Source: a virus
DNA length: 39,659 nucleotides
IMG/VR virus record: IMGVR_UViG_3300042868_005031
Span: 1-39,659 of that record
Strand: one strand, 5' to 3'
Of the stretch, positions 1 through 34,674 are shown piece after piece; position 1 is the stretch's first letter; every line of letters begins with the position of its first letter. The notes under the pieces were generated by a model that was not told the origin of the DNA, searched no databases, and was given only the letters and a program-made list of their open reading frames with translations. Made by a program: the position numbers and the translations under genes.

Positions 1-632
1 CCCATATCAACTGCGTGTTGTAATAAATCAAAATGCTCCTTGATCATCCAAGGTTCGCCGCCTGTAAATTCAAAATATTTGATGTTGGGCAACAAAGACT
101 TCATATTATCCCAGAATGTTTCTGTCTTACGGGGCCACGCACCTTCTTTTAACCAAGTGTATGCAATATGTTTTTTCTTATCTGCGCCTGCTGGTAGATA
201 TTTCATTTCTTCTTCGGCCCATTTGCTACTAGACCAAGACCCGCATATGCGACATTTGAGATTGCAAATGTTGCCCAACTTTAAATCTACAAACCAAAGC
301 TGGTCCGGATCGTCGTTGGACCAATCTACTTGTTTGTATAATTCTTTTAGTCTAACCTGACTGTGTATGCGTTTGCTGTCACGGCCGGCTGCTTCTTCGT
401 CCCAGCAACGACTACAAGTAGCAGGCTTTTCTCCGTTACGGAAGTCTTGTCGTAGTCGTTGCATATACTTACTATGGTATACTGTTTCGAGATCAGTTTC
501 TGTGAGATTATACTTTTTGCCTGCGTCGTCTGTTATTTCTTCGTGTGCCATACAGCAAGGACGTACTGTACCTAGCGGGCTAGTTTCAATGCTGACCCAC
601 GGTAGCATACAAATTGTTGAAGGTAATGTCAT
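1..632 (-). CDS. Radical SAM protein with N-terminal twitch domain (3' end off window)
   Basis: The visible part is 210 codons, and the gene runs off the left edge. It begins at an ATG that overlaps the stop of the preceding gene as ATGA, so the two are translationally coupled. Residues 8-27 carry the CMLPW segment and a paired PCC, and C73/C76 form a CxxC. This is the layout of an N-terminal half-SPASM (twitch) domain that binds an auxiliary iron-sulfur cluster. The core radical SAM motif CX3CX2C is at C123, C127 and C130, followed by a GGEP motif near residues 191-194 that contacts SAM. It is the last of five radical SAM genes in a row and is most like the 442-residue one upstream. The family cleaves SAM to a 5'-deoxyadenosyl radical; the substrate here is unknown. 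Family call is firm, function is open. Confidence 0.88.
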   Translation of the reverse strand, partial: MTLPSTICMLPWVSIETSPLGTVRPCCMAHEEITDDAGKKYNLTETDLETVYHSKYMQRLRQDFRNGEKPATCSRCWDEEAAGRDSKRIHSQVRLKELYKQVDWSNDDPDQLWFVDLKLGNICNLKCRICGSWSSSKWAEEEMKYLPAGADKKKHIAYTWLKEGAWPRKTETFWDNMKSLLPNIKYFEFTGGEPWMIKEHFDLLQHAVDM

Positions 633-1621
633 TTTCTTATACCACAAGTTTCGTTGCAGGTGTATAGTTTACCCTGCGGTACTGTTAATTGCCAAGACTG
701 TTCTATTTTGTTAAACCAATCAATGGCAACTTCAATGCCGTACTCTATTGCATTGTTGTTGCTAATAATAGGACGTAACTGTAAATTACTAGGTCTACTT
801 AATCCGTGTTGCGGATAAAATCCAAGCCAACAACAAGGATATACTTCTCCATTGGCATTTATATAAATTTCTTTATTACGAGATGAATAGCAATCTATTT
901 GTTTGTCATCTATTTCATTTTTCAGTGCTGTGTCTGGCTGTATTTTATAATACTGAGAAATAGTATGCAGTTCGTCAAAGTCTGTACTACCACGGTAATC
1001 CCCAATGATATGACTTAGTTTACGATCTGGAGTAAAGACAGGAAAACTGTTGCGGCCATTGTCTACTAGCCAAAATTTACCAAATCCCAATTCCTTGCTC
1101 AATTGCTCACAGGCATCAATTTGATGCTCGTTGTGTTTGAACTTAATCATTGCCCAGATTGCATTGCCACCAGCTGCAATAAACTTTTTAGCATTGTCTA
1201 TTACCAAATCCCAATCTGTATTTTGTCTGTACAAATGGTGTGTGTCTTTTAATCCATCTAATCTAAAATCCACAGTGACACCCAACTCGCCTAATCTTGT
1301 CCATATTTTAGGACGGGCACTGGCATTACTGCTAATTTCAATTTGTAATGCAGGATTACAAGATAAAAAATACTCTACTATATCTAGCCCATCTGCTGCT
1401 GTAACAAAATCTCCATAGTTGCCATTTATTAAAAGATTGTCTAGTTGTTGTACAAAATCAACAGGGAAGACTTTCTTTACTTGTTCTAGCTTCATATCTA
1501 AAACAGGATATGTGTCTACTACATCTACGCCGCGAAAATTGCGTGGGCAATCAGGACACGCTGCATTACAACGTGTGCTAACTTCGAGATGTACGCTGCG
1601 TATGTCTCGATATTTTATCAT
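629..1621 (-). CDS. Radical SAM protein with C-terminal SPASM-like domain
   Basis: 330 residues. The cluster motif CX3CX2C is very near the N-terminus at C18, C22 and C25, with no N-terminal twitch domain. The auxiliary-cluster cysteines are instead C-terminal: C244, the CC pair at 263-264 within VYPCCW, and C322/C326. This is the reverse domain order of its four neighbours. The usual GGE motif is replaced around residues 67-71 by GNYGD, as in some SPASM-type proteins. Both ends overlap neighbours as ATGA, which indicates tight translational coupling. The SPASM family includes peptide-modifying maturases and enzymes acting on sugars or alcohols; the substrate here cannot be read from sequence. 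It may work with the adjacent twitch-type enzymes on the same substrate. Confidence 0.87.
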   Translation of the reverse strand: MIKYRDIRSVHLEVSTRCNAACPDCPRNFRGVDVVDTYPVLDMKLEQVKKVFPVDFVQQLDNLLINGNYGDFVTAADGLDIVEYFLSCNPALQIEISSNASARPKIWTRLGELGVTVDFRLDGLKDTHHLYRQNTDWDLVIDNAKKFIAAGGNAIWAMIKFKHNEHQIDACEQLSKELGFGKFWLVDNGRNSFPVFTPDRKLSHIIGDYRGSTDFDELHTISQYYKIQPDTALKNEIDDKQIDCYSSRNKEIYINANGEVYPCCWLGFYPQHGLSRPSNLQLRPIISNNNAIEYGIEVAIDWFNKIEQSWQLTVPQGKLYTCNETCGIRK

Positions 1622-2946
1622 CTAATAGAATTAAATTCTGGAAAAGTTTTCCAGAAATCCTCATTTCTTAATACATCGAGTTTGTCAATTTCAACTTTAA
1701 ATTGATCCCACCCAGCAGGATTGTGATTGCTATCCATAAAGTTTAGTACACTCTTGAAGCCATTGGTAGCACGTTTTAAATCATCTTGTGGCTCTAGCCA
1801 CTCAATATGGCGTTCGTATGCTGGACGGATAACAGTATTCTTAAAGTCCTCAGGAAAGATATCAATGCGATACCATTCAGGGCCTTGACAAATGTTTACA
1901 TTAAAATCCTTGGGTTTAACTAGTCCCAAGTCGCACCATTCTCGGTGGAAATCTAATACGTGCAACACATTCATTGAACTGATAGTTGCAGCAATATAAA
2001 AATCCACGTGTGGTACTTGTTCCATCATACGACGGCGATTGTCTACTGTTTGCTGCCAGTCTGTACCTTTGCGTATCAATTCAGCACGGGCGCCACTGTC
2101 ATCTAAACTAGCACCAACACTGACATTCTTAAAATGTTTCCAGTATTCAAAAACGTGCTTATCCTTAAATGCCAGTTCACTGAAGTTTGTGTTGTAGTGT
2201 ATGCGCACATCCGTTTTGCCTAGCTCGATTAATTTTTCCAGCATCAAATAATGCTCTTTCATAATCAAGGGTTCGCCGCCAGCAAAGTATACTTGCTCTA
2301 AGTAAGGTATGTGCGGCATCATCTGGGCAATCATATCATCTTCGTCGCCAGTGGTGTATTCTACTCGTGCCATCGGACGACCCAGTACATCGGGATCACG
2401 GCCGTACATCTTTTTGTGATCATTAAACCAGTTACTACTAAAAATAGGCCCGCAACTGCGACATTTAAAATTGCACAAATTGCTAAAACGAACATCCCAG
2501 TAACGTATTTTAAATTCTGGATGCTCGCCATCTTCTGTTGTTTGATCTACTTCGCCGATGTGATGCCCGTAATTTCTATTAGCATCGTAACGCATACTAA
2601 AGAACCCGCTATCTTCTTGTTCGTAACATTTGGTACATTGTTTGCTAGGTTGATCGGACAGCATATTTTTGCGTAATTCTTTATACCCATCTTGATTCCA
2701 CACAGTTTCCATTGTGTCTTTACGAAGGTCTCCAACTGGATGCCAGTAGTCAGCTAAACAGCAAGGATATACTCGTCCATCAGGATAGGCGTGCATATGT
2801 ACCCAAGGTAGCATACAAAAGTTCTTACTTTCTGTTAATAGCCCTTTTTGTTTTTCTGATAAATCTTCTAGCTTGATAAAATAAGGAGCACGGGCCATAT
2901 AGTCGTACTTTTTATAAAAAGTTTTTACGTTACTTTCGTCGCTCAT
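1618..2946 (-). CDS. Twitch-domain radical SAM protein, 442 aa
   Basis: The N-terminal twitch region has C44 in CMLPW, the pair C62/C63 in VYPCC, and C104/C107. The radical SAM core has CX3CX2C at C158, C162 and C165, and GGEP at residues 223-226. The order of auxiliary-cluster half-domain first and TIM-barrel core second matches the phage-associated N-terminal twitch radical SAM family (NF033640-type, from memory). It overlaps both neighbours by 4 nt (ATGA). It resembles the left-edge radical SAM gene more than the 449- and 462-residue pair, so the array contains two sub-lineages. The reaction is expected to be SAM-dependent radical chemistry; the substrate is unknown. Confidence 0.9.
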   Translation of the reverse strand: MSDESNVKTFYKKYDYMARAPYFIKLEDLSEKQKGLLTESKNFCMLPWVHMHAYPDGRVYPCCLADYWHPVGDLRKDTMETVWNQDGYKELRKNMLSDQPSKQCTKCYEQEDSGFFSMRYDANRNYGHHIGEVDQTTEDGEHPEFKIRYWDVRFSNLCNFKCRSCGPIFSSNWFNDHKKMYGRDPDVLGRPMARVEYTTGDEDDMIAQMMPHIPYLEQVYFAGGEPLIMKEHYLMLEKLIELGKTDVRIHYNTNFSELAFKDKHVFEYWKHFKNVSVGASLDDSGARAELIRKGTDWQQTVDNRRRMMEQVPHVDFYIAATISSMNVLHVLDFHREWCDLGLVKPKDFNVNICQGPEWYRIDIFPEDFKNTVIRPAYERHIEWLEPQDDLKRATNGFKSVLNFMDSNHNPAGWDQFKVEIDKLDVLRNEDFWKTFPEFNSIR

Positions 2947-4292
2947 AGTGATTTATACCAATCTGCTAGTGCAGGAAATGTAGCACAGAAGTCTTTGCCT
3001 CGGCGCTGGTCGTATTGTGTATAGAAATTTTTAAAGTCTTGTTGTAGCACTGATTGTTCGGCTGCACCCATATGCGGTGTCTTGACTACATCTAAATAAT
3101 CAATGAGCCGTTGTAATTGATTGCGCTCCATTTGATGCAGAAACTCGTTGTCCATGTTGGCATCAAGCCAGGCCTGTAAGCGGTGTTGATATATTGTTCT
3201 CAGTTCCTCTGATAAGACCAACGGACTTTGAAAACTTGGAAATCTTAGTATGTTTAATGTGAACGTAGGGTAATCTTTACCAAACTCTGTTTTCCATTGC
3301 AAAATAATATCTAAGAATTGATCCAGCGAATCCAGACAAAGTGCATTAATAGTACACATCATATGGAAGCCTTCTATGCGCCCATTGGTCAAAACTTTTT
3401 CTACGTTATTGGCCCAATCATCCCAGACAATACCATCACGGATATATTCTGCTTGAAGTCCTACTGCTTCGTTGCTAGTGTACAAATGGAAATGTTTAAT
3501 ATTTTGGCTAGCGTCAATCATACGATCTATTAGATCGTCTTTGGCACCTAAATTACTATTCATTGCAAAACGCATTTCGGTGTCGTGTGTTTTAAACCAA
3601 TCTAATAGTTTCCACGTGTCCCCTGACATCAATGGTTCGCCACCTGTTAGTCTGAGTTCTTTGAGTGTTCTGTGGAGATCTGATTCCCACCATTTGAAGA
3701 ACGCATCTGCATACGGATTTCTTTCACTAAATCTATAAAGTTGGCTGCTAGAATGCTCGTGAGTAAAATGGTTACGACCGTCAGATACCAATCGGGTGTA
3801 CGGTCCATTCCTAGTAATATCATTAACCCAGGTGCTACTAAAAGCAGGGTTGCAATAACTACAAGCAAAGTTGCAGGTTCGATCAAAAGCAATTTCAAGC
3901 GTTTGAAGATCGACGTCTTCGTTTGCGTCAAGTTTGTATGCATATTCTAAATCCTCGTCTGAATAAATTACGGTTTTATAAACACGATCGCTTATATTAT
4001 CCCGTCCTATGTCTTCTATCTTCCAACAGTATTCGCAACCTGCAGGACGTTCTCCGTTCTGCATCTTTTTACGTTCTGCTTTTTTCTTGTGTGTGTTATG
4101 TAATGCTTTAAAATTTTCTTCAACTTCTTCAACAGTTACTTTATGCGGTAAGGGATGATGGCAGCTGGTTGTCATCCCTGAGCCTAACCAAATAGTAGCA
4201 TTATACCACTTGGCTCCGCAAAACGACTCTGACTTGATGTCGATTACACGGCGTTTATATTCTAAGTCTGTTTCGTTATTAATTCTGGGCAT
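2943..4292 (-). CDS. Twitch-domain radical SAM protein, 449 aa
   Basis: The N-terminal cysteines C25, C44, C86 and C89 would ligate an auxiliary cluster. The core CX3CX2C is C140, C144 and C147, followed by FSSTW, and GGEP begins at residue 217. It is clearly paralogous to the 462-residue gene two positions upstream, with shared CSYCxPxFSS and NPYxDAFxxWW segments. Its start lies inside the end of the SGNH gene (14-nt overlap), and its first residues, MPRINN, closely match the first residues of that SGNH protein, MPRIDN. This comes from a duplicated junction sequence rather than shared function. It overlaps the next gene as ATGA. Substrate unknown. Confidence 0.9.
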   Translation of the reverse strand: MPRINNETDLEYKRRVIDIKSESFCGAKWYNATIWLGSGMTTSCHHPLPHKVTVEEVEENFKALHNTHKKKAERKKMQNGERPAGCEYCWKIEDIGRDNISDRVYKTVIYSDEDLEYAYKLDANEDVDLQTLEIAFDRTCNFACSYCNPAFSSTWVNDITRNGPYTRLVSDGRNHFTHEHSSSQLYRFSERNPYADAFFKWWESDLHRTLKELRLTGGEPLMSGDTWKLLDWFKTHDTEMRFAMNSNLGAKDDLIDRMIDASQNIKHFHLYTSNEAVGLQAEYIRDGIVWDDWANNVEKVLTNGRIEGFHMMCTINALCLDSLDQFLDIILQWKTEFGKDYPTFTLNILRFPSFQSPLVLSEELRTIYQHRLQAWLDANMDNEFLHQMERNQLQRLIDYLDVVKTPHMGAAEQSVLQQDFKNFYTQYDQRRGKDFCATFPALADWYKSL

Positions 4293-4293
4293 A
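4270..4293. repeat. Junction direct repeat, copy 1
   Basis: 24-nt direct repeat, matching positions 4874-4897 with 2 mismatches (4272 and 4280). It spans the end of the SGNH gene and the start of the 449-aa radical SAM gene. It encodes the upstream C-terminus (YAQN) in one frame and the downstream N-terminus (MPRI-N) in another. Similarity continues beyond it: both upstream proteins end with a tryptophan a few residues before YAQN. Confidence 0.85.
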
Positions 4294-4896
4294 CATTGAG
4301 GTCCATTTATTATAAAGTCGGTTACTTATTTCTTGATGTGTGCTAATACCGTAATGCATTTTATCTGGTGCCCAATCTTGTACTACATTTTCCATTGAGC
4401 AATATTCTGGAAATTTATTTAACTCGTTTTCTATTTTATAATAAGTTTCGTGCAAATGAGATAATCTAAAAAATAAAAAATTAGCGTTGGCGTCGCGAAA
4501 TCTAGTAACAAGCCTATTAACAATTTTAATAAATTCGTATAATAAATAATTTTCAGTATAAAAAATTACATCATCTCGGCTATAGTCTCTACCTTGCTTA
4601 GTAAGCACTACATCTATTTTTGAATCGTACACTCGTAATCTAAAGACATCACTAAATTGTATTATTACTGATTTATTTCGTAGAGACAATTCAGTTAATT
4701 TTTCTTCAATTGCCATATTACCTTGCCCGGGCAATCCCAATATTAACGGATCGACAATGTTTAACATTTTAGAAAACAGTATTGGATATGTTGTGTCTCT
4801 TGATCGATGCCCTGTCCCCAATGTATGACTACAACCGATTACTAATAATTCATTTTCGATTGTTTTACGGGTTGTGTCGTTATCAATTCTGGGCAT
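4279..4896 (-). CDS. SGNH/GDSL-hydrolase-like protein
   Basis: 205 residues. Block I is GCSHTLG with candidate nucleophile S23, replacing the usual GDS. A Gly/Asn-bearing segment LPGQGN is at 55-60. A block-V-like DKMH gives D178 and H181 as the other catalytic residues. SGNH proteins hydrolyse or transfer acyl and acetyl esters on sugars, lipids or peptidoglycan. No signal peptide is visible, so it probably acts in the cytoplasm. The gene sits between two paralogous radical SAM genes and overlaps both by 14 nt. It is bounded by a near-identical 24-nt sequence at each end and reads more AT-rich than its neighbours, which suggests it was acquired as a cassette. Block III is not clear, so activity is inferred. 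Confidence 0.7.
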   Translation of the reverse strand: MPRIDNDTTRKTIENELLVIGCSHTLGTGHRSRDTTYPILFSKMLNIVDPLILGLPGQGNMAIEEKLTELSLRNKSVIIQFSDVFRLRVYDSKIDVVLTKQGRDYSRDDVIFYTENYLLYEFIKIVNRLVTRFRDANANFLFFRLSHLHETYYKIENELNKFPEYCSMENVVQDWAPDKMHYGISTHQEISNRLYNKWTSMYAQN

Positions 4897-4897
4897 A
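4874..4897. repeat. Junction direct repeat, copy 2
   Basis: Partner of the repeat at 4270-4293, 604 nt away. It spans the end of the 462-aa radical SAM gene and the start of the SGNH gene, in the same two frames as copy 1. Recombination between the copies would remove the SGNH gene and leave the two radical SAM genes with the same 14-nt overlap. Confidence 0.85.
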
Positions 4898-6271
4898 ATA
4901 TTTACATTGGTTCCAAAATTCCCGCATCTCAGGGAATGTTTTTAAAAAATTTGTGTTGCGACGTTTATCGTGTTCGTTAAAAAATCTATAAAAATCTGCT
5001 TGTTGTAGTGTAACATACTCTGGATCTAATTTGCTACCCTCTCTCATCCAATCAATGTCTCGACGCATACGTTGTACTTCGTAATCTTTAAATCCGTGAA
5101 ATGGATCATCGGGTGTTTCTAGATTTAGCTCCATCCAATCTGCTACTCGTTCCAATCTATCAGCATAAACAGATGGTAATATTTGTAAGCTTTGCCAGCT
5201 AGGAGTTCTAAGTAACGGAGTGTCAAACCAAACACGTTGATACGTTGTACTGTGCTGTCTACGCAAATCCAATATCCATTCCAATTGTCTTTGAATACCG
5301 AGCACACTAAGATTATTCATTGTAATAATAAAAGTTAAACTATTACGATACGGTATATCTGATAAGAATCTTCCTACATAATCGTTAAGTCTAACTGCAT
5401 CTAAACCGTTACGAATATATTCAGCGTGTTCAACAATTCCCGAATCGAGACTAACATATTGCATAAAATGTTCAATTTGGGTATTGCATAATTGTTTTAC
5501 ATAGCCGAGATACTTTTCAAATAATACTTCTTCTACACTAAAGTTTGATGTTACATTCAAATGCAGTTCTGGATTAGGCAATGCTAATACATAGTCAAAT
5601 ACTCGGTAAGTATTCCGATCCATCAGCGGCTCGCCGCCAGTCATACGAAAATGTTTTAGATGGGGGTAAAGCGTGGGCCACCACTGCCAGAATGCATCAA
5701 CATATGGATTATCTGCTCTAGTAGGAATTGGTCTATTACGGCCAGTAAAGTGGCTAGGATCATTGTGAATAACGCTAGTAGGATAACCACCCCAACGGTC
5801 AACTTCTTGTTGCCACGAGCTGCTGAACTGTGGACTACAATAACTACATTTAAGATTACAAGCGTGATTAAAATTAACTTCAACGTAACTAGGTATAGCA
5901 TCTTCATCTCCGGTACTGTTCATTATAGAGGTAAAATCGGATGCTGCCCATTTTTCTCCGCTGCGATAGTGCCTATCACTTAATTGCCCGTGTGCTTCTA
6001 TATTCCAACAGTACGAGCATTCAGATGGCTTCTCTTGACGAAGCATAATTTTTCGTTGCTCTTTTTTGTGTACTGTATTGTGTAATGCACCAGGATTGTC
6101 TTTTAATAAACGGGCATCAATTTCGTGTAAAGGCGGGTGATAACAACTATTATTTAATCCTGTGGGCAAGTGCAGGCTAACCTGTTTCCACTTTGCCAAA
6201 CACATTGCGTTGCCAAGATTATCTTTCATCCACTCGGCACTGGACATAAAATCACTTTTGGGTTGTGTCAT
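4883..6271 (-). CDS. Twitch-domain radical SAM protein, 462 aa
   Basis: First radical SAM gene of the array in transcription order. N-terminal auxiliary-cluster cysteines are C24, C43, C85 and C88. The core CX3CX2C is C138, C142 and C145, followed by SPQFSSSW, and GGEP begins at residue 212. It is a paralogue of the 449-aa gene and is separated from it only by the SGNH gene. The start overlaps the stop of the AMP-ligase gene as ATGA, so ligase and radical SAM translation are coupled. Its C-terminus (YAQN) is almost the same as that of the SGNH protein because of the duplicated junction. Substrate unknown. Confidence 0.9.
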   Translation of the reverse strand: MTQPKSDFMSSAEWMKDNLGNAMCLAKWKQVSLHLPTGLNNSCYHPPLHEIDARLLKDNPGALHNTVHKKEQRKIMLRQEKPSECSYCWNIEAHGQLSDRHYRSGEKWAASDFTSIMNSTGDEDAIPSYVEVNFNHACNLKCSYCSPQFSSSWQQEVDRWGGYPTSVIHNDPSHFTGRNRPIPTRADNPYVDAFWQWWPTLYPHLKHFRMTGGEPLMDRNTYRVFDYVLALPNPELHLNVTSNFSVEEVLFEKYLGYVKQLCNTQIEHFMQYVSLDSGIVEHAEYIRNGLDAVRLNDYVGRFLSDIPYRNSLTFIITMNNLSVLGIQRQLEWILDLRRQHSTTYQRVWFDTPLLRTPSWQSLQILPSVYADRLERVADWMELNLETPDDPFHGFKDYEVQRMRRDIDWMREGSKLDPEYVTLQQADFYRFFNEHDKRRNTNFLKTFPEMREFWNQCKYYAQN

Positions 6272-7356
6272 AATAGATTATACATCCGATTTAATAGTGT
6301 ACGGGAAGTTTTGCCTGCTGCGTTTTTAGGTATAGATGTTACTTGTTCTAGCAACTTAGGATAACAATATGGACTGATTGATAGTAGCTGTTTTTTAACT
6401 ACAGCAGGATCAATTTCACCAGTGTAGATACACATCAATCTATCTGTGCCAAAAACAACAACATCGCCAATCTCAGGAATAAAATTATACAATTGATTTT
6501 CGATACTCAATGGATCTATTTTATATCCGCGGATATTAATCCTATCAATTGATCTACCCAATATCCTAACATATCCATCCAAGTCCTGATCAGCCAGATC
6601 GCCTGTGTCAAACCATTCATTGGTGTATGCTGACTGTCCTTTAAGGAATAGTTTGCCTTGATCTATATAAAATTCTATTCCGCTGGGTCGTCCAATGGTT
6701 CCTATCTTTTGAGGACCGTGTATGGGATTAGTGAAGCAATGACTACAGGTTTCTGTCATCCCAAATGCTTCAATTACTGGAACAGACCATCTTTGTTTTA
6801 ATCCCAAATAAGTTGCCTCCGGTAATGCCATTGACGCTGAACGAACGAATCTTAATGTATTAAAATTTTGCTTAGTTGCCAACTTTAAAAAGTCAGGGAT
6901 AGCACTCAGATACGTTGGTTGAAAATCTATAGCATTTTTAAAATCGCCAACAGAGGCCATTTTTATTTCACATCCAGCTGATTGCGCAGCTAGATACATA
7001 AGTAATCCGTGAGCGTGCCAAAGTGGCATAACGCTTAGGTATCTATCGTTTGATGTTAAATCGTATGAGTTGATGATGTTGTCAATTGAATATTGTACTT
7101 TGTCTGCAGAAAAACCGTACATCTTACTATCGCCTGTGGTGCCCGATGTGCATAGCACTATGCGTTCGTCACTGTAATCATTTCCAAATCGTTTTTCTAT
7201 ATTACCGGGAGTTACTAATAAACTCCAATCGGCTTTATCTAATAGATATTGTTTTCTTGCTAGAGGTTCTGCAGGATTAATAATCACCAGACTATAGTTG
7301 CTGTATTGACTAATATAATTCCAAGGATCAGGCACACACAATGCTACTCTTTTCAT
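6268..7356 (-). CDS. Compact AMP-forming acyl/aryl ligase (ANL superfamily)
   Basis: 362 residues. The adenylate-forming motifs appear in order: the P-loop-like TSGTTGDSK at about 70-78, EAFGMTET at 196-203, DTGDL at 250-254, the hinge/A8 region GRSIDRINIRGYK at 267-279, and PKNAAGK at 343-349 with the C-terminal lysine K349. A catalytically complete enzyme is therefore likely. It is short because only about 65 residues precede the P-loop, where most ANL enzymes (about 500 aa) have 150 or more. The expected reaction is carboxylate plus ATP to acyl-AMP, then transfer to CoA, a carrier protein or another acceptor. No carrier protein is visible in this window. ATGA overlaps on both sides tie it to a glycosyltransferase-like gene and the radical SAM array. 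Substrate unknown. Confidence 0.87.
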   Translation of the reverse strand: MKRVALCVPDPWNYISQYSNYSLVIINPAEPLARKQYLLDKADWSLLVTPGNIEKRFGNDYSDERIVLCTSGTTGDSKMYGFSADKVQYSIDNIINSYDLTSNDRYLSVMPLWHAHGLLMYLAAQSAGCEIKMASVGDFKNAIDFQPTYLSAIPDFLKLATKQNFNTLRFVRSASMALPEATYLGLKQRWSVPVIEAFGMTETCSHCFTNPIHGPQKIGTIGRPSGIEFYIDQGKLFLKGQSAYTNEWFDTGDLADQDLDGYVRILGRSIDRINIRGYKIDPLSIENQLYNFIPEIGDVVVFGTDRLMCIYTGEIDPAVVKKQLLSISPYCYPKLLEQVTSIPKNAAGKTSRTLLNRMYNLL

Positions 7357-8252
7357 TCTCTTGACATTGGCCCTGTGTTTTTAAAATTTGCCTTATAATG
7401 ATGTTTGAAAAAACGACTTTGTTGTGCAGTCATATCTACAATATCAAGACCCAATCTTGTGCGTAGTGTTTCCCCAAGACTAGCACAGGCGTCAACACCG
7501 TCGTGGCTAAATGTTGTCCATAAATTGGCCAATGTATCAAAGTCTTGTACTTGTCGATGGTCCCACTCTCGCAGCATAGTGTAATAAGTTCCTAGTCGAG
7601 CACCATAAATGGCCCAAAATCCATTGTCGATATCTGCACCGACGCTTTGCCAAATGCATAAGTGATCATAATTGCGCTCGTGTACTCGTTGTTTAAACTG
7701 ATCCATTGAGGGCTTATGACCTCGGTCTAAACACATTTTAACACCCTCACGGAATCCGGCACGCCAGGCCTGGAATGGCGTAGCATTGGGGTAGGTTGTG
7801 CTATAACAATCATTCATTGCCCAGTAGTTAGGGTAGAAACAAAACTCAACATCATTGGCTTCGCTGCCGTCTGTGGCTTCGTGTGTACGCATATTGTAGA
7901 CAAATTCTCGAGTCCAGCAACTCATACCACCATTGCCATACATCAGTCCATTGATAACATTCCGAGCCCGCCAGCGGAAAACACAATCGCGGTTGCTGTC
8001 ATCAATTACTAATTGTAAGTTAAAAAAAGCAGGATCTGGTATATTATCGCCATCAATGAGAACAAAGCGATCAGTGTCGCTGGCGTCCGCTGCGGCTTTG
8101 TGCGCTGCATCCGAGCCTTTGACGCCGTCCACCCTTTTGGCCCAGGGCACCAAGTTTTGTATTTGTATCCAAAATTCTTCTTTTTTAGGTTCGTCATACG
8201 TTAGGTAAATGCAATCTAAGTCTGCTACATCAATTATTTGTTTTTCTGTCAT
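7353..8252 (-). CDS. Glycosyltransferase-like protein with DGDN motif
   Basis: 299 residues. The N-terminal half looks like a GT-A nucleotide-sugar fold: an early beta strand (residues 14-19), AKRVDGVKG at 38-46, and IDGDN at 66-70, where D67/D69 form a DxD-type metal-binding motif after a hydrophobic strand. Similar proteins with YDEP and a D-G-D motif recur in T4-like marine phages, where they are annotated as glycosyltransferases (from memory). The C-terminal half is rich in Trp, Tyr and His and is not recognised. It overlaps the upstream 134-aa gene by 23 nt and the downstream ligase by 4 nt. The likely role is sugar transfer to a surface or virion acceptor; donor and acceptor are unknown. 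Confidence 0.6.
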   Translation of the reverse strand: MTEKQIIDVADLDCIYLTYDEPKKEEFWIQIQNLVPWAKRVDGVKGSDAAHKAAADASDTDRFVLIDGDNIPDPAFFNLQLVIDDSNRDCVFRWRARNVINGLMYGNGGMSCWTREFVYNMRTHEATDGSEANDVEFCFYPNYWAMNDCYSTTYPNATPFQAWRAGFREGVKMCLDRGHKPSMDQFKQRVHERNYDHLCIWQSVGADIDNGFWAIYGARLGTYYTMLREWDHRQVQDFDTLANLWTTFSHDGVDACASLGETLRTRLGLDIVDMTAQQSRFFKHHYKANFKNTGPMSRE

Positions 8253-8634
8253 AGTATTCGATATCGTTATAAATTTCGTTTGAGTTTAATATAATTGCTG
8301 CGTGGCCTTTTACTACACAATATCCTTGAGACGATTTTGTTAAACGAAATTCCAGTTCTTTAACAGGGGGGGGTTCCTCTATATTAATTTTCCCATCTAC
8401 AATTGTTGTTCTATGAATTGGTAGTTCTTGAAATATCACTGGGTCTTTAATAACAATATAATTATCCCCCGCAGGATAATCTGTCGGGAACATTCCTAAT
8501 ATGGTGCCATCGTCTGCATTATAATAAATTCGGTATTCTTTTTTTGCTTCTAGCTCCATACGCCGATTAGTTTCTTCTTCGGCTATACGTAACCCTTCAA
8601 AGAATTCATCCCAACCGTCGTTCGTAGTAGTCAA
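8230..8634 (-). CDS. Hypothetical protein, 134 aa
   Basis: I do not recognise a family. The first 30 or so residues are acidic and probably helical (WDEFFEGLRIAEEETNR). The rest looks like a small beta-rich domain (YRIYYNADDGTILGMF, a PPPVKELEF segment, then GYCVVKGHAAIIL). There is no signal peptide or membrane segment. It is kept as a real gene because it fills the space between two overlapping glycosyltransferase-like genes (29-nt and 23-nt overlaps), in the same direction and without a competing frame. A partner or substrate-binding role in the glycan module is possible but unsupported. Confidence 0.65.
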   Translation of the reverse strand: MTTTNDGWDEFFEGLRIAEEETNRRMELEAKKEYRIYYNADDGTILGMFPTDYPAGDNYIVIKDPVIFQELPIHRTTIVDGKINIEEPPPVKELEFRLTKSSQGYCVVKGHAAIILNSNEIYNDIEYYDRKTNN

Positions 8635-9457
8635 TTAAATCTCCAGTTGCAAAGTCTTTATTATAGTAGTGTAAAGGATGATATTGATTAATGTTATTGA
8701 TTCGTATCATACCATTGTCAAATTCTGTATTAAATACATCGGTAAATTTTTGAGTTTCACTAAATCCGTTTATTGCAGGTTTCATATGCACAAAGTTTAT
8801 GAAATCCAAACTGGGCATTGTACAACGTTCTTCACCTAGAACCAGTGCAGTTAGTGCATACAGTAAGTCTGTGCTTGGGGTGTCTTCGTTACAACCTTTG
8901 ATTTGTTGCTTTACTGTTTGCCACTGTTCAAAAATATTTTGTGCAATATTAAAAAAATTTGCTGCGGTTTGACTATATCTGAAGTACATCAGTCCATTAT
9001 AAACATCAGGTAAATGATTATCGTCAAATACGGTTCGATATTTTCTAACGTTACTTGGTTCTTGTTGGTAGTTCCTGCACCCAGTACTTAAACACACATC
9101 CTGTAATCTAAAGGCAGTCCACCAATGATCAATGCTGCGGGTAAACAATAAATCACTTTCTAATTTAATTGTTTCTTTAAACGGAGTTAGACGAAAAGCT
9201 TGCCATTCGTTGGCTAACCGCCAATTAGAATCAGTGCTATTAAGATCGTATGTAATATCAATGATGTAGTCGAATATAGATAGATGTTTTTCATTTAATT
9301 GCGATTTGGTATTTTTGTCTACTGCTACTGCAAATTGATTATGTCGCTGTGTTGCTTTAATATTTAGTGCTTGAAGGTAGGCTAGTTGTAGATAATCTAC
9401 ATCATTGGTATTTTGTGCAAAAGTAAAATATCCTTGCTGTGCTTTATGCTGACTCAC
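8606..9457 (-). CDS. GT-A-like glycosyltransferase paralogue with altered DxD
   Basis: 283 residues, homologous to the gene just upstream (260 aa). The segment FRLTPFKETIKLESDLLF aligns with YELSPYDETLVIDADFLVF in that protein. The expected DxD metal-binding motif is ESD (E100, S101, D102) here. A second shared element is STDLLYA, matching RNDYAFA. The fold therefore looks like a nucleotide-diphospho-sugar transferase, but the metal site differs, so activity or donor specificity may differ too. It overlaps neighbours by 14 and 29 nt. There are no membrane segments. Acceptor unknown. Confidence 0.6.
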   Translation of the reverse strand: MSQHKAQQGYFTFAQNTNDVDYLQLAYLQALNIKATQRHNQFAVAVDKNTKSQLNEKHLSIFDYIIDITYDLNSTDSNWRLANEWQAFRLTPFKETIKLESDLLFTRSIDHWWTAFRLQDVCLSTGCRNYQQEPSNVRKYRTVFDDNHLPDVYNGLMYFRYSQTAANFFNIAQNIFEQWQTVKQQIKGCNEDTPSTDLLYALTALVLGEERCTMPSLDFINFVHMKPAINGFSETQKFTDVFNTEFDNGMIRINNINQYHPLHYYNKDFATGDLIDYYERRLG

Positions 9458-10226
9458 TGTCTACAAACTCCCTAAACTGTTCACTTTGCAAATATGCTTT
9501 ACTCATAACGTGCATATTAGTGCGCGGTATGACGAAAGCACGTGATGCATCTCTTACAATAAAATTATTGCCTTGTGCTGTAATGCTGGTTAACGGATTA
9601 TCTATGTGTAGCATAGGACCTAATAACGAATCCTGCTTGATTGTACTATATCCTTTTAGCACAATATCAGCCATAGCAAAAGCATAATCATTGCGAAAAT
9701 TATTATGTTCAATATTGAACAGCGCACAATAATAACTGTAATTTTCTTGAATACGTCTAACTAGTTGAAAGAAATTTTTTGCTGCTGGTGTTTTTCTAAA
9801 CACAAACGCGGTGGCCCAAACATATGGTAAACCGTGTGCGCTCATACGTTCTGGATACTGCTGAGTTAAACCAATTGCGTCTTTCATTATGAGCCAATCC
9901 CAATGACTTAGATCAAATGCTTGCACAAAAGTTTTATCAAATACGAGAAAGTCGGCATCAATTACCAGTGTTTCGTCGTAAGGACTTAGCTCGTACGCTT
10001 GATATCGACCAGCATTGCGCCATTGTACAAATTTACCAACATCGGTATCAAATCGTTGATTCTCGTAATCTTGTGCTGCATCAGTTATTAGTGTATACGG
10101 CAGGTTTAAAGTTTTGCTGGCCAACTTTAATGTTCGTTCAGCAATACTGACATAATTGGTGGTGTCAGTGTTATATGCGAATGACAAGATGCCTCTAGAC
10201 TTTTCGAATTTTTTTAAGTTCTTCAT
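9444..10226 (-). CDS. GT-A-like glycosyltransferase
   Basis: 260 residues. GILSFAYNT at 12-20 is the first beta strand and nucleotide-binding loop, and LPYTLITD (42-49) looks like the second strand. The motif DAD at D90-D92, within ETLVIDADFLVF, is the likely divalent-metal and UDP-sugar site. NDYAFA (179-184) and a late HID may complete the active site. The layout resembles GT8-like enzymes, though assignment to a CAZy family is not possible by eye. The start overlaps the upstream gene by 32 nt, and no later methionine is suitable. It is followed by its divergent paralogue. The likely role is sugar transfer to a surface glycan or virion protein. Confidence 0.62.
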   Translation of the reverse strand: MKNLKKFEKSRGILSFAYNTDTTNYVSIAERTLKLASKTLNLPYTLITDAAQDYENQRFDTDVGKFVQWRNAGRYQAYELSPYDETLVIDADFLVFDKTFVQAFDLSHWDWLIMKDAIGLTQQYPERMSAHGLPYVWATAFVFRKTPAAKNFFQLVRRIQENYSYYCALFNIEHNNFRNDYAFAMADIVLKGYSTIKQDSLLGPMLHIDNPLTSITAQGNNFIVRDASRAFVIPRTNMHVMSKAYLQSEQFREFVDSESA

Positions 10227-10542
10227 ATTGTTGATGCCAAGAATTCATTACTTGTTGGTAGTGTTGACAGGCTGTTTTGTAAAATTCTGCACAATCATCG
10301 ATGTGTATCGGATTGCCGTACGCATCTTCTACATACATACTATCACCGCCTCCCCAGGGCCATACTTCGCCTGCACTACGCCAGGCGTGTACAAATGCAA
10401 TCAATTCAGGACTGGCTTTAAACAGGCCGCCATTATGTGTAAAGTGAAGATCAGTCTGAATCTTTTCGTGTAGTAGTTTCTTATTGATTTGATGATCAGT
10501 GGATTGTTTTATTTGCTGTACAATATTTGAAATTTCTGTCAT
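10195..10542 (-). CDS. Hypothetical protein, 115 aa, first gene of the tailoring operon
   Basis: No recognised catalytic family. It is helical and charged at both ends (an N-terminal stretch of K, Q and E; C-terminal WHQQYEELKKIRK), with a central Gly/Trp segment, WPWGGGDSM. No signal peptide or membrane segment is seen. It starts 25 nt downstream of the predicted transcription start of the promoter inside the terminator, with a weak GGGA ribosome-binding site. Its place directly after the fiber and adhesin genes would fit a small chaperone or assembly factor, as gp57A is for T4 fibers. That is a positional guess only. Confidence 0.65.
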   Translation of the reverse strand: MTEISNIVQQIKQSTDHQINKKLLHEKIQTDLHFTHNGGLFKASPELIAFVHAWRSAGEVWPWGGGDSMYVEDAYGNPIHIDDCAEFYKTACQHYQQVMNSWHQQYEELKKIRKV

Positions 10543-10558
10543 TGAATTTCCCAGATAG

Positions 10559-10590
10559 AAAAAAGCATAGTAGATTTTACACTACTATGC
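10559..10590 (-). terminator. Intrinsic terminator ending the structural operon
   Basis: On the minus strand a perfect 9-bp stem (arms 10582-10590 and 10565-10573, GCATAGTAG with its complement) encloses an 8-nt loop. It is followed directly by six T residues (10564-10559). It lies 27 nt past the stop of the last virion gene and stops transcription arriving from the right. Confidence 0.85.
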
Positions 10591-10603
10591 CCTGTTTTGT
10601 CAA
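10574..10603 (-). promoter_or_regulatory. Sigma70-like promoter embedded in the terminator
   Basis: Minus strand: a consensus -35 TTGACA at 10603-10598, an 18-nt spacer, and a -10 TAAAAT at 10579-10574 (5 of 6 bases match TATAAT). The -10 lies in the loop of the terminator hairpin. Transcription would start near 10567, inside the second arm, so these transcripts cannot form the hairpin and should read into the tailoring operon. Inferred from sequence alone. Confidence 0.6.
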
Positions 10604-10616
10604 ACTCAATCGTTGA

Positions 10617-11546
10617 TTAAGTAATTGTTATTGCTCCGCCCCAAGAACTGGTCAAATAGGTGGTTTCTGGATAAACAATATCAACTCGGGAGTTTAATGT
10701 AATACTTAGTGTATCGTCCCAAGTCTTGTCTGGTATGTTGTAACTAATTCGAAAAACTACAGTAACACCTTTACTACTATTGGTAGTAGTACTATCGGAC
10801 GCATAGATACCAATTGATCCAACTGATGCTGTATATGCCGCGGTGGTATCAGTTACTGCAACAATAACTGTATTTGTATTATAAACCATATCATAATAGC
10901 CGATTGTTGTATCGTTGGTATTTAAAGTTATTCCTGTACCTGTTCGTCCAGTGTTATTAAGAGCTTTAACTCCAGTTCCGCCTAATCCGGTTATTATTCT
11001 CCCGAAACTAGAGCTAGATCCTGATCCGTTGCTACCACTAGTACTTAATACTAAATTTAGCTGACCGCCACAATTAAAGAAAAATCTCACTTGGTCAATA
11101 CTGCTAAATGTAACTGCACGATCAATATAAGTGTTGATACCGGTTGTGCTAGATATTGCAGTTGTAAAGTTTGATCCTGTGGTAGTTGTGCCCTGCGATG
11201 CAAAATCGGGACCTGCATAAAATGTTGTGATAATTGTGTTGTAAAAATCACCAATATAATTAATTTTACTACCAGCAGTCATTCCAACTGACGAAAACGC
11301 AGTTGGACTGCCGGTTTGATGCAATCTAGCATTGTTTAGTGCATTGATCATTGTTGCCCATTGTGTTGCGGTAACTGTGGACCCAGCTGCTACTGTTGAT
11401 ATTGCAGGTTGTCCATACCCATATCGTCCGTAAGCAGGAAATCCGTTTCCCCAAAATGACCGAATGGAATCTATCGTTCCGTTTACACCGAGTATAAACG
11501 AGTTGTAGTCGTATGCATCAATTTTTCCGCCTTGTATGTATGTCAT
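10617..11546 (-). CDS. Virion structural protein, tandem paralogue 2
   Basis: 309 residues, paralogous along its full length to the 299-aa gene immediately upstream. Both share an N-terminal motif (QGG-I-A-DYN-FI), the segment VTATQWA-INALNNARLHQTG, a Gly/Ser-rich middle (STSGSNGSGSSSSFGR) and a C-terminus built around DKTWDDTL-ITLNSRVDIV-PETTYL. Composition (Thr, Ser, Asn, Gly; few charges) fits a beta-structured virion surface or fiber-associated protein. I recall similar proteins in T4-like marine phages annotated only as virion structural proteins. It is the last gene before the terminator. Exact location in the particle is unknown. Confidence 0.72.
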   Translation of the reverse strand: MTYIQGGKIDAYDYNSFILGVNGTIDSIRSFWGNGFPAYGRYGYGQPAISTVAAGSTVTATQWATMINALNNARLHQTGSPTAFSSVGMTAGSKINYIGDFYNTIITTFYAGPDFASQGTTTTGSNFTTAISSTTGINTYIDRAVTFSSIDQVRFFFNCGGQLNLVLSTSGSNGSGSSSSFGRIITGLGGTGVKALNNTGRTGTGITLNTNDTTIGYYDMVYNTNTVIVAVTDTTAAYTASVGSIGIYASDSTTTNSSKGVTVVFRISYNIPDKTWDDTLSITLNSRVDIVYPETTYLTSSWGGAITIT

Positions 11547-19306: not shown

Positions 19307-22300
19307 GGCGTATACCCTCTACTTGCCTTCAGGAATTCGGCTTGTGCTGTTGTGCTGTTTAGTAATCCGGTACCATCTGTGGCTGTTGTAATACCACGGT
19401 TATACCATATGTTACCAGTTACTAATGTTGTACCGGCTGCAATAGTTACTTCGCCGTTGGAGTCAACTGTTCCTAATTGCGCGGAATTAATTACATAACT
19501 ATTGGTTATATTACCATTGATGTATATTGGGTCTGACGTTTGATCAAAACCTATTCCGGCTGGATCTGGCTCGTATATACTCCACGATGATCCGCTCCAT
19601 TGGTATAGTACATTACTTGATGTATTCCACCATTGATCGTCGACTTGTAGATTGGCATTGAACCCGGGTTCGGTTGTGGTATTACCGGCAAATTTATAAA
19701 ACACATTAGAAACGTAAGGCTGTACATTTGATGCTACGTTGGCAAAATACTGCCCATAAACGTTACCGGTTGTTACATAAAACACATTACCGTTTGGTGT
19801 AATTATAGTACCTGTTGGTATTACTGAAATATTTGCGTTTGCGGTCCATAACGCGGCTGCTTCAACTCTTCCGTTATTATTAGTAACGTTAGCAAAACTT
19901 GGAAAGTATACATTGCCAACCACTTCGTATGTGTTGCCAGCATGATACAATGATGAACCGCGAGGTGAAGCAGTATTAGCTACCCAAGTTGGTATAATTG
20001 GGCTTGGTCTTACTGCTGGCGCTGAACTGGCAACGATTCGATATCCGCCTGCACCTTGGTAATCGTACCCCAATGAGTTATCAAACGAATCTGGTAAACC
20101 TTGTACTCCACCTTCTAGTAGAATTACTGGAACTACTGTAACGTTGCTGACTGTTTCTAATACACGCATAGATGCTATTGTTGCAGAAGAATTTGAATCA
20201 ATCTGAGAAATAGTATCTCCTATGTTTGCACTAATATTTGCAGTTAAGAATATCTTATAGCTAATATCATCAGTAACAGTATAGGTTGTGTTAACAGACA
20301 AAGTAACATTTTCAGTTTCCGTATCTGGCACTACTTGCTGTAATCCGGCGTCAACCACTCTTGAATCCACTGATTGTATAGTTGACGGTGCTGTACCATC
20401 AACAGCACGTCTGATTTGAGTCAGTATATTGACGTTTGCCAATTGTTTAACATTAGCTGAGATGTTGGCAAAGTTTTGAGTATATACGTTACCTAGTGTT
20501 AGGTAGGTATTGCTGCTGTAAGTAATCAGTTCACCGACTGATACCAGCAAATTGCTAGACCATGGTGTTGGAGTTTCCAACGCATAATTTCTATAGTATG
20601 TGATTTTTTCACCATTGATAAAAATCACGCCCGGACTTGCAATTTCTCTGTTTGGATTAGTTAATACGCTAGCATCATCGACATAAATGTTAGTGTCGCT
20701 CAGAGCCAAGTTTCCGGATAACACGGTTGTGTTGGCCGCTGCAATTCGATAGTAACTTAATGCATCGCCTGTGTTGCCAAAAATCTTAAATGCTAAATTG
20801 CTAGTATCAAATACCGATAAACTTAAAGAATTTAACATTCTGCCAGGAATCAGTTCTTGTGGTGCGTGACTCTCAAATGTGTCAACATACTCACCGCCGT
20901 CGATATAGATAGTACTAGGACGAACTCCCAAGTCATCTGTGTACAGACTTTGTATAATACTGTCTAATTCTGTTCCAACATAACTGCTAACGTTTGCATC
21001 AGTAATAGAAGTATTGCCATCAACTATAACTCCGGGATAGTCAATGCCATCTTGAGTCAATGACAGGTCAATATTACCGTTAAAGGCAGTGATCCTATCG
21101 TTGGCGCTATCAAATATGTTGGCATTAATACCAGAAACATTGCTTGTTGGGAATGTAACATTGGCATCGATGACATAAGTATTTGCTAACTTAAATAAGC
21201 TACCAGACAGCAGTATGATTGTATTGGCTGCAATAGTTTCTCCGACATTGGATGTAGTTAAATCAGTCCAGTTAACAAATACATTTGATGTAGTATAAGA
21301 TACTCTGTCAAATTTCATATTTGTTTTAATGCTTCTAACTACGTTATGCCCGGTGTCTGCACCATCGTTAATGTTACGCAGAACTGCGCGACCTGTTGCA
21401 CCAGTGCCGGTGCCATTGATAATAATATCTGGGAAAGTTGTATATCCAGATCCGCTTTCAATGATATAGATGTTGGCAATGCCGCCGCTGCTGTTGATAG
21501 TAGCGTATGCTGTGGCTCCAGTTCCCCCGCCACCACTGATGGTAATTTGTGGTGCAAACAAATAATCTTGTCCAGCATTTTCTACAACTACATCAACCAC
21601 TTGGTACTTATAGTTGCTGTTCCACTGAGAGTAAACACCTTGTGTCCATAAAGTAGAATCGTATGTCTGCTCGCCGCTGGGGCTACGGTAAACCTGTAAG
21701 TTTGCGTCCCAGTAGGGAGGCAAATCAAAGTCTGTTATATCTGCGCCGTAATTATCATTTCGTTCGTAGTTGACAACAAACTCTCTAAGTACAGTTCTGT
21801 AAGGTTTAACCTCGTTAATATATTCGCGATAATAATCTTGATTATCGGCAATGTAAGCAGGGAATTGTTCCAGTTTTCTAATATATTGTGTAGCTGTTAG
21901 GAAACTGGTTTTAAATACCCAATCAAGATTCTTTTGCTCTGTCAATGCGTACTTGATGATTGCAAAGAATATTTGATTATATTCGTATTCTAAGTCGTCA
22001 ATGAAAATTTCGTTTTGCATTGACAACATAATTTGTCGCATTTCCTTAGCAGGAATTGTGTCTGTGGAAATCTGAATAGTTCCGTTTTCGATTCCCACTA
22101 CAGTTAAACTTAGATCGGATTCAACGTAATAGATAATAAACTGATTATCAGCATCGTGAACAACTTTAACATATTGGTCAGCAACTAGAGTTAATTTACC
22201 TAGCTCAATGTTATTGGCAACAGTAACGTCCGGTGCTCTGGTGTAATCGTAGCCAGCTTCGTACCAACTTGAATTGGTCCAATACAATGTAGTCTTGTAA

Positions 22301-34240: not shown

Positions 34241-34271
34241 TTTACCTATATCATATATTTATTTAGGTAAA
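34241..34271. promoter_or_regulatory. Inverted repeat around a candidate late promoter of gp6
   Basis: Perfect 8-bp arms TTTACCTA (34241-34248) and TAGGTAAA (34264-34271) enclose 15 nt. The minus-strand box AATAAATA (34263-34256), 7 of 8 bases matching the T4 late box, lies between them and ends 20 nt before the gp6 ATG. It could be a promoter with an operator, or a leader hairpin. It has no T-run, so a terminator is unlikely. Confidence 0.45.
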
Positions 34272-34661: not shown

Positions 34662-34674
34662 ATATGTATTTATT

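Follow-up and report, generated by a model that had tools for sequence, protein, structure and literature searches.

A sigma-70-type promoter overlapping a terminator-like hairpin at the border between late and sigma-70 genes in uncultivated T4-like phages

In the 39,659-nt stretch of viral DNA that we analyzed (the window), we found a sigma-70-type promoter and a terminator-like hairpin that are built from the same bases. We think it likely that this element is a compact insulator between two transcription units, which terminates the RNA arriving from upstream and starts the next block. The geometry, in which the –10 lies in the hairpin loop, had been read from the window alone; it holds there and is found again at this junction in relatives whose stems are unrelated in sequence.

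The element and its gene setting

The window represents part of the genome of an uncultivated T4-like myovirus. Its minus strand encodes a gp25-like baseplate wedge and a hub/lysozyme-like protein upstream of the junction, with radical-SAM proteins and an AMP-binding enzyme downstream of it. The features at the junction, in the direction of transcription, are as follows.

10617 to 11546, minus strand: the last gene before the junction, encoding a 309-aa tail-fibre-like repeat protein (no PHROG or Pfam match)
10598 to 10603, minus strand: –35 hexamer TTGACA, also present in L012, L046/L052, L060 and most other class A relatives (class defined below)
10582 to 10590, minus strand: arm 1 of the putative terminator stem, GCATAGTAG (from sequence and folding)
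10574 to 10579, minus strand: –10 hexamer TAAAAT, within the hairpin loop, 18-nt spacer to the –35
10565 to 10573, minus strand: arm 2, CTACTATGC, which holds the predicted transcription start (from sequence and folding)
10567, minus strand: predicted +1, 7 nt downstream of the –10 and placed from the position of the –10
10559 to 10564, minus strand: T6 tract 3' of the stem (from T-tract asymmetry across relatives)
10195 to 10542, minus strand: p115 (115 aa), which opens the downstream block with an ATG at 10542 (in all 80 relatives listed)
629 to 10226, minus strand: remaining downstream block, with two related proteins (260 and 283 aa), p299, the radical-SAM proteins and the AMP-binding enzyme

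The name 'GT-like' that we use for the 260- and 283-aa proteins is a working label only. PHROG and Pfam gave no match for p115, p299 or the 260-aa protein. Between 629 and 7356 (minus strand), four radical-SAM-like proteins, two of them with weak Pfam matches, and the AMP-binding enzyme adjoin tail-fibre genes. Cultured phage records gave no match to the junction by megablast or to p299 by tblastn, so our comparison rests on IMG/VR contigs. No confirmed relative of p299 was found in GTDB genomes, and the host therefore cannot be named.

The sequence-only reading had described TTGACA, an 18-nt spacer and TAAAAT inside the loop of a perfect 9-bp stem followed by six T; on the minus strand the match is exact, and hexamers, stem, loop and T6 all lie to the base where that reading had put them. 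The stem has four G-C pairs, is followed by TTTTTT and has a predicted folding energy of –11.7 kcal/mol; the loop is TGTAAAAT, and TTTTTTCT runs from 10564, after arm 2, on the minus strand. The hairpin is thus a stable G+C-containing stem-loop directly before a U tract on the transcribed strand, as in an intrinsic terminator. It has the most pairs among the minus-strand terminator-like sites of the window, and the 76-nt stretch around the element has a folding z of –3.2 relative to shuffles. Measured against a sigma-70-type promoter (TTGACA-like –35, 16–18-nt spacer, TATAAT-like –10), the site scores 11/12 with a spacer of 18, and no other promoter-like site on either strand of the window reaches that score. 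Promoter and hairpin coincide in the correct orientation and fill most of the 75-nt intergenic gap (10617 on the stop side, ATG at 10542). Within the window, promoter-like sites taken together are no more frequent than in shuffles (51 found versus 60.7 expected in one half, 73 versus 66.7 in the other); the promoter by itself is thus weak proof, and the case rests on comparison.

We propose that polymerase coming from the late virion genes would transcribe the full hairpin and the U tract and be terminated. Sigma-70 RNA polymerase would bind TTGACA and TAAAAT independently and, with the –10 forming the hairpin loop, would start in arm 2; the predicted start at 10567 is the third base from the end of that arm. 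The initiated RNA would carry only the last few stem bases, would be unable to fold the terminator and would escape, expressing p115 and the downstream tailoring genes. The mean predicted folding energy is –10.8 kcal/mol for read-through RNA versus –0.4 kcal/mol for initiated RNA. Termination and initiation at the junction are both predicted from sequence.

The same junction in relatives

The core sequence GTAGTGTAAAATCTAC was matched in 46 IMG/VR stretches, and in four relatives the match lies at the p115 junction (L002, identical to L035; L012 and L028, which have the same element; and L046). All four close relatives retain TTGACA, TAAAAT, the stem and the T run. The spacer is 17 nt in the three nearest relatives versus 18 nt in the window, and an A-to-G substitution in arm 1 of L002 leaves a G-U pair. 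The gene order fibre, p115, two related proteins, p299 is common to 80 loci around p299 homologues, and from 64 IMG/VR relatives together with the window we obtained 65 distinct junctions. A sigma-70-type promoter, called at a match of at least 9/12, is present at 54 of these 65. When we shuffled the junctions with hexamers fixed (mononucleotide shuffles within segments), the hairpin spanning the predicted start beat 95% of shuffles at 38 of the 54 promoter-bearing junctions and 99% at 35, where both counts come from rows with a hairpin only and the relatives are not independent samples.

These 38 hairpins comprise 27 of class A, in which the –10 is in the hairpin loop, and 11 of class B, in which the –10 is just before the hairpin and the start is in the first arm. 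At the 27 distinct class A junctions, the predicted start is in arm 2, so promoter-initiated RNA would lack the first arm. Escape in class B is predicted to depend more on the exact start; RNA that begins early would still carry a stem of up to –11 kcal/mol (L066). Class C junctions have a canonical terminator and then either a separate sigma-70 promoter in the same gap (for example L108, L120 and L125) or a late motif; in L062, L069 and L096 this motif is GATAAATA, just before p115, so that late control may extend to the downstream block in these relatives. Class D junctions (L065, L077 and L090) keep a promoter without a hairpin, so the terminator is not indispensable.

We found that the stems fall into about 15 families, many of them unrelated (for example GCATAGTAG, GGTGTAGAC, AAGGTTAGTGTA, GATAGGTATATATTA, AGTACAGGTATATA, CTGTAGCCTGTT and AAGGCCTATAGTA). 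These families (A1–A13, B1 and B2) were assigned by eye, and several A2 members with a mismatch or a large loop were classed by hairpin scoring and by eye rather than by the automatic classes. On a tree of the two best-conserved neighbouring downstream proteins, the stem label changes at least 23 times and the state fused or not fused changes at least 12 times. Class A is present in several well-separated clades; thus, the layout has persisted longer than the sequence. Two-sided changes affect 4 of 11 pairs in family A3, where 97% of cells are paired as compared to 27–47% when the arms are slid (six sequences only). The sequence-only reading would have been undermined by relatives that keep the hairpin and lose the hexamers, and it came through this comparison nearly intact; the exceptions are L058, which retains a B1-type hairpin and has no –35, and family A3, in which the –10 is retained and the –35 has decayed to TTTACA or worse. 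Hairpin and –35 are therefore not strictly coupled.

Across the junctions, the 8 nt after the stem hold 5.9 T's as compared to 3.7 A's in the 8 nt before it, with a background of 3.2 (Wilcoxon p 2e-7). This asymmetry speaks against the possibility that a dimeric repressor binds the inverted repeat as a DNA operator overlapping the –10, with the T run incidental. Dyads across –10 elements are typical of repressor sites, and several class A relatives with weak T tracts (L051, L055, L110 and L114) have near-perfect palindromes. However, the dyad has one clear copy each, at the junction, in the examined genome pieces of G002, G003, G004 and G010 and one in the window, a count that leaves out G011 (search arm too loose) and G008 (part of the genome, without the junction), and that sets aside loose two-mismatch matches in G002 and G004. 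Thus, repetition of the dyad at other promoters of the same genome, as expected of an operator, was not seen in G002, G003, G004, G010 or the window. The stem sequence has also been swapped repeatedly while the layout stayed constant, and a change in L060 breaks the symmetry of the DNA yet leaves G-U pairing in the RNA. Because the T tract is asymmetric, the dyad is single and ordinary terminators occupy the same gap in other relatives, we favour a terminator and regard an operator as unlikely.

The distance from the stem to p115 bears on whether the hairpin instead blocks p115 translation on read-through RNA without terminating it. This is how T4 e, soc and I-TevI work, where the late promoters lie within the hairpin's 5' strand (PMC3014915, PMC2988022), and a second locus in related aquatic phages (described below) has a sigma-70 promoter and then a hairpin with a Shine-Dalgarno sequence. 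At the p115 junction, however, the stem usually ends 10–23 nt before the ATG in relatives, and the second arms hold no Shine-Dalgarno sequence; the window has 22 nt between the end of the stem and the ATG, with the purine-rich GGGAAA falling outside the stem. We consider a translational block at p115 very unlikely. We give equally little weight to the idea that the hairpin is a processing or stability element of late mRNA (for example a 3'-end protector or an RNase III site) whose overlap with the promoter is due to the short gap. Although 3'-protecting hairpins resemble terminators and the intergenic gaps are merely about 60–90 nt, class C fits both elements side by side within 77–92 nt, and with hexamers fixed, hairpins spanning the start are far commoner than in shuffles of the same gaps.

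We scanned 64 distinct 12-kb loci (783 kb) for the fused element; 26 copies lie at the junction and 4 at other places. The same scan found none in 150 kb of T4 and 147 kb of HTVC008M. Six relatives (792 kb), with 501 promoter-like sites of at least 10/12, contain 8 fused elements versus 1–2 in each of three shuffles. Conservation in relatives is the decisive evidence against chance: that a promoter-like sequence and an AT-rich inverted repeat overlap fortuitously, as the lack of promoter enrichment in the window might suggest, is barely credible and is contradicted already by recurrence at one junction with unrelated stems and by the counts of 26 and 4.

Late and sigma-70 territory and a second locus

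Two copies of a T4-type late-promoter motif precede genes upstream of the junction.

34667 to 34674, minus strand: AATAAATA, T4-type late-promoter motif before the gp25-like baseplate gene
34256 to 34263, minus strand: AATAAATA, T4-type late-promoter motif before a gene of 1016 aa

The motif NATAAATA is the late motif given for cyanophage S-PM2 (PMC2984593). In the window and six relatives, its density is 0.5–2.3 per kb in the 70 nt before genes versus 0–0.04 per kb in gene bodies. In the region 1–4 kb upstream of the junction, we found 84 matches in about 172 kb; downstream it is nearly absent, and it does not occur at this junction. TTGACA-type sites peak in the final kb before p115 (31 matches). 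A sigma-70 peak 2–3 kb downstream of the junction looks like coding sequence of conserved genes and was not used. Matches to T4 gp55 in 7 of 8 relatives are weak but consistent (E 7e-7 to 7e-6), and these relatives appear to encode a gp55-like late sigma factor. Taken together, the restriction of NATAAATA to the upstream side, the sigma-70 peak at the junction and the gp55 matches indicate that the junction is the border between late and sigma-70 territory, which bears out the earlier proposal that late virion genes are here set off from genes driven by host polymerase. The G004 and G005 contigs have an unusually large number of consensus host-type promoters, with 12 and 16 perfect TTGACA-16/18-TATAAT sites that lie nearly all on the same strand, versus 0–2 in a reversed-pattern control.

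Among the 8 fused elements of the six relatives, 2 lie upstream of a dNMP-kinase-like gene (function predicted from sequence) between structural genes, in G002 and G011.

L146, 4431 to 4486 (G002): fused promoter-hairpin before the dNMP-kinase-like gene
L160, 7183 to 7238 (G011): fused promoter-hairpin before the dNMP-kinase-like gene

We compared 67 distinct regions upstream of homologues of the dNMP-kinase-like gene. A sigma-70-type promoter is present in 65, and 37 contain a hairpin across the predicted start that beats 95% of shuffles. In 31 of these 37 hairpins, a Shine-Dalgarno-like sequence is in the loop or second arm. Most of the hairpins resemble what is seen at T4 gene e, here with a sigma-70 promoter, and a few (L182, L200, L239 and L242) look like terminators. 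At many of the dNMP-kinase loci (L182–L261), the TGA stop of the upstream gene is inside the –35 (TTGACC). Another fused element, TTGACC-17-TATAAT inside a 17-pair stem (GCCCG/CGGGC), is found at 19357 on the minus strand of L162 (G010), before a gene starting MSKLFTFAGTC.

A host-type promoter fused into a hairpin that acts only on RNA from upstream may be a recurrent design rule of this uncultivated T4-like group, used as a terminator at the late/sigma-70 boundary and as a hairpin hiding the ribosome site before the dNMP-kinase-like gene, with stems rebuilt repeatedly under selection for layout; we see the odds of this broader claim as about even.

Comparison with known systems

In T4 e, soc, 49 and I-TevI, translation of early RNA is blocked by a hairpin whose first arm is missing from RNA started at the late promoter, and mobE of Aeh1 and segB have the same arrangement (PMC3014915, PMC2988022). 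The junction element is alike in that a start inside the hairpin would remove the first arm while upstream RNA would form the hairpin, and both are found in T4-type phages. In contrast, the promoter of the T4 e/I-TevI class is a gp55 late promoter (TATAAATA), whereas here TTGACA/TAAAAT is of sigma-70 type; the upstream RNA in that class is early or middle, whereas the upstream genes here have late promoters; and the hairpin in that class hides a ribosome binding site, whereas here it resembles an intrinsic terminator. Two defining features of the class that we looked for, one of them the gp55 late promoter, are absent from the junction, and we therefore set the element apart from the class though it would work like it.

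In L108, L120 and L125, the same two functions are served in the same place by an ordinary intrinsic (rho-independent) terminator and, after it, a separate promoter; in the window and class A, by contrast, the two share bases and the –10 is the terminator loop. The T4-like cyanophages S-PM2 and Syn9 have sigma-70 early promoters and NATAAATA late promoters, both of which types are found here too, and the available part of their description does not mention a promoter-terminator fusion (PMC2984593). Within open PMC text, we found nothing on point about promoter-terminator overlaps. The gene VIII/gene III region of M13 is a possible precedent.

A compact virus would here separate two transcription programmes in about 45 bp, with one DNA segment as the stop for the upstream polymerase and the start for the next block; the two would not interfere, as initiation takes away half of the stop. 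The stems that have replaced one another under a constant layout are natural variants for testing how much of the first arm initiation must remove, and the element could be used as a small insulated promoter part. Removal of the first arm by an internal start is already known from T4; a sigma-70 promoter inside an intrinsic terminator is a new variation on this principle, and it would extend the translational trick of T4 to transcription termination.
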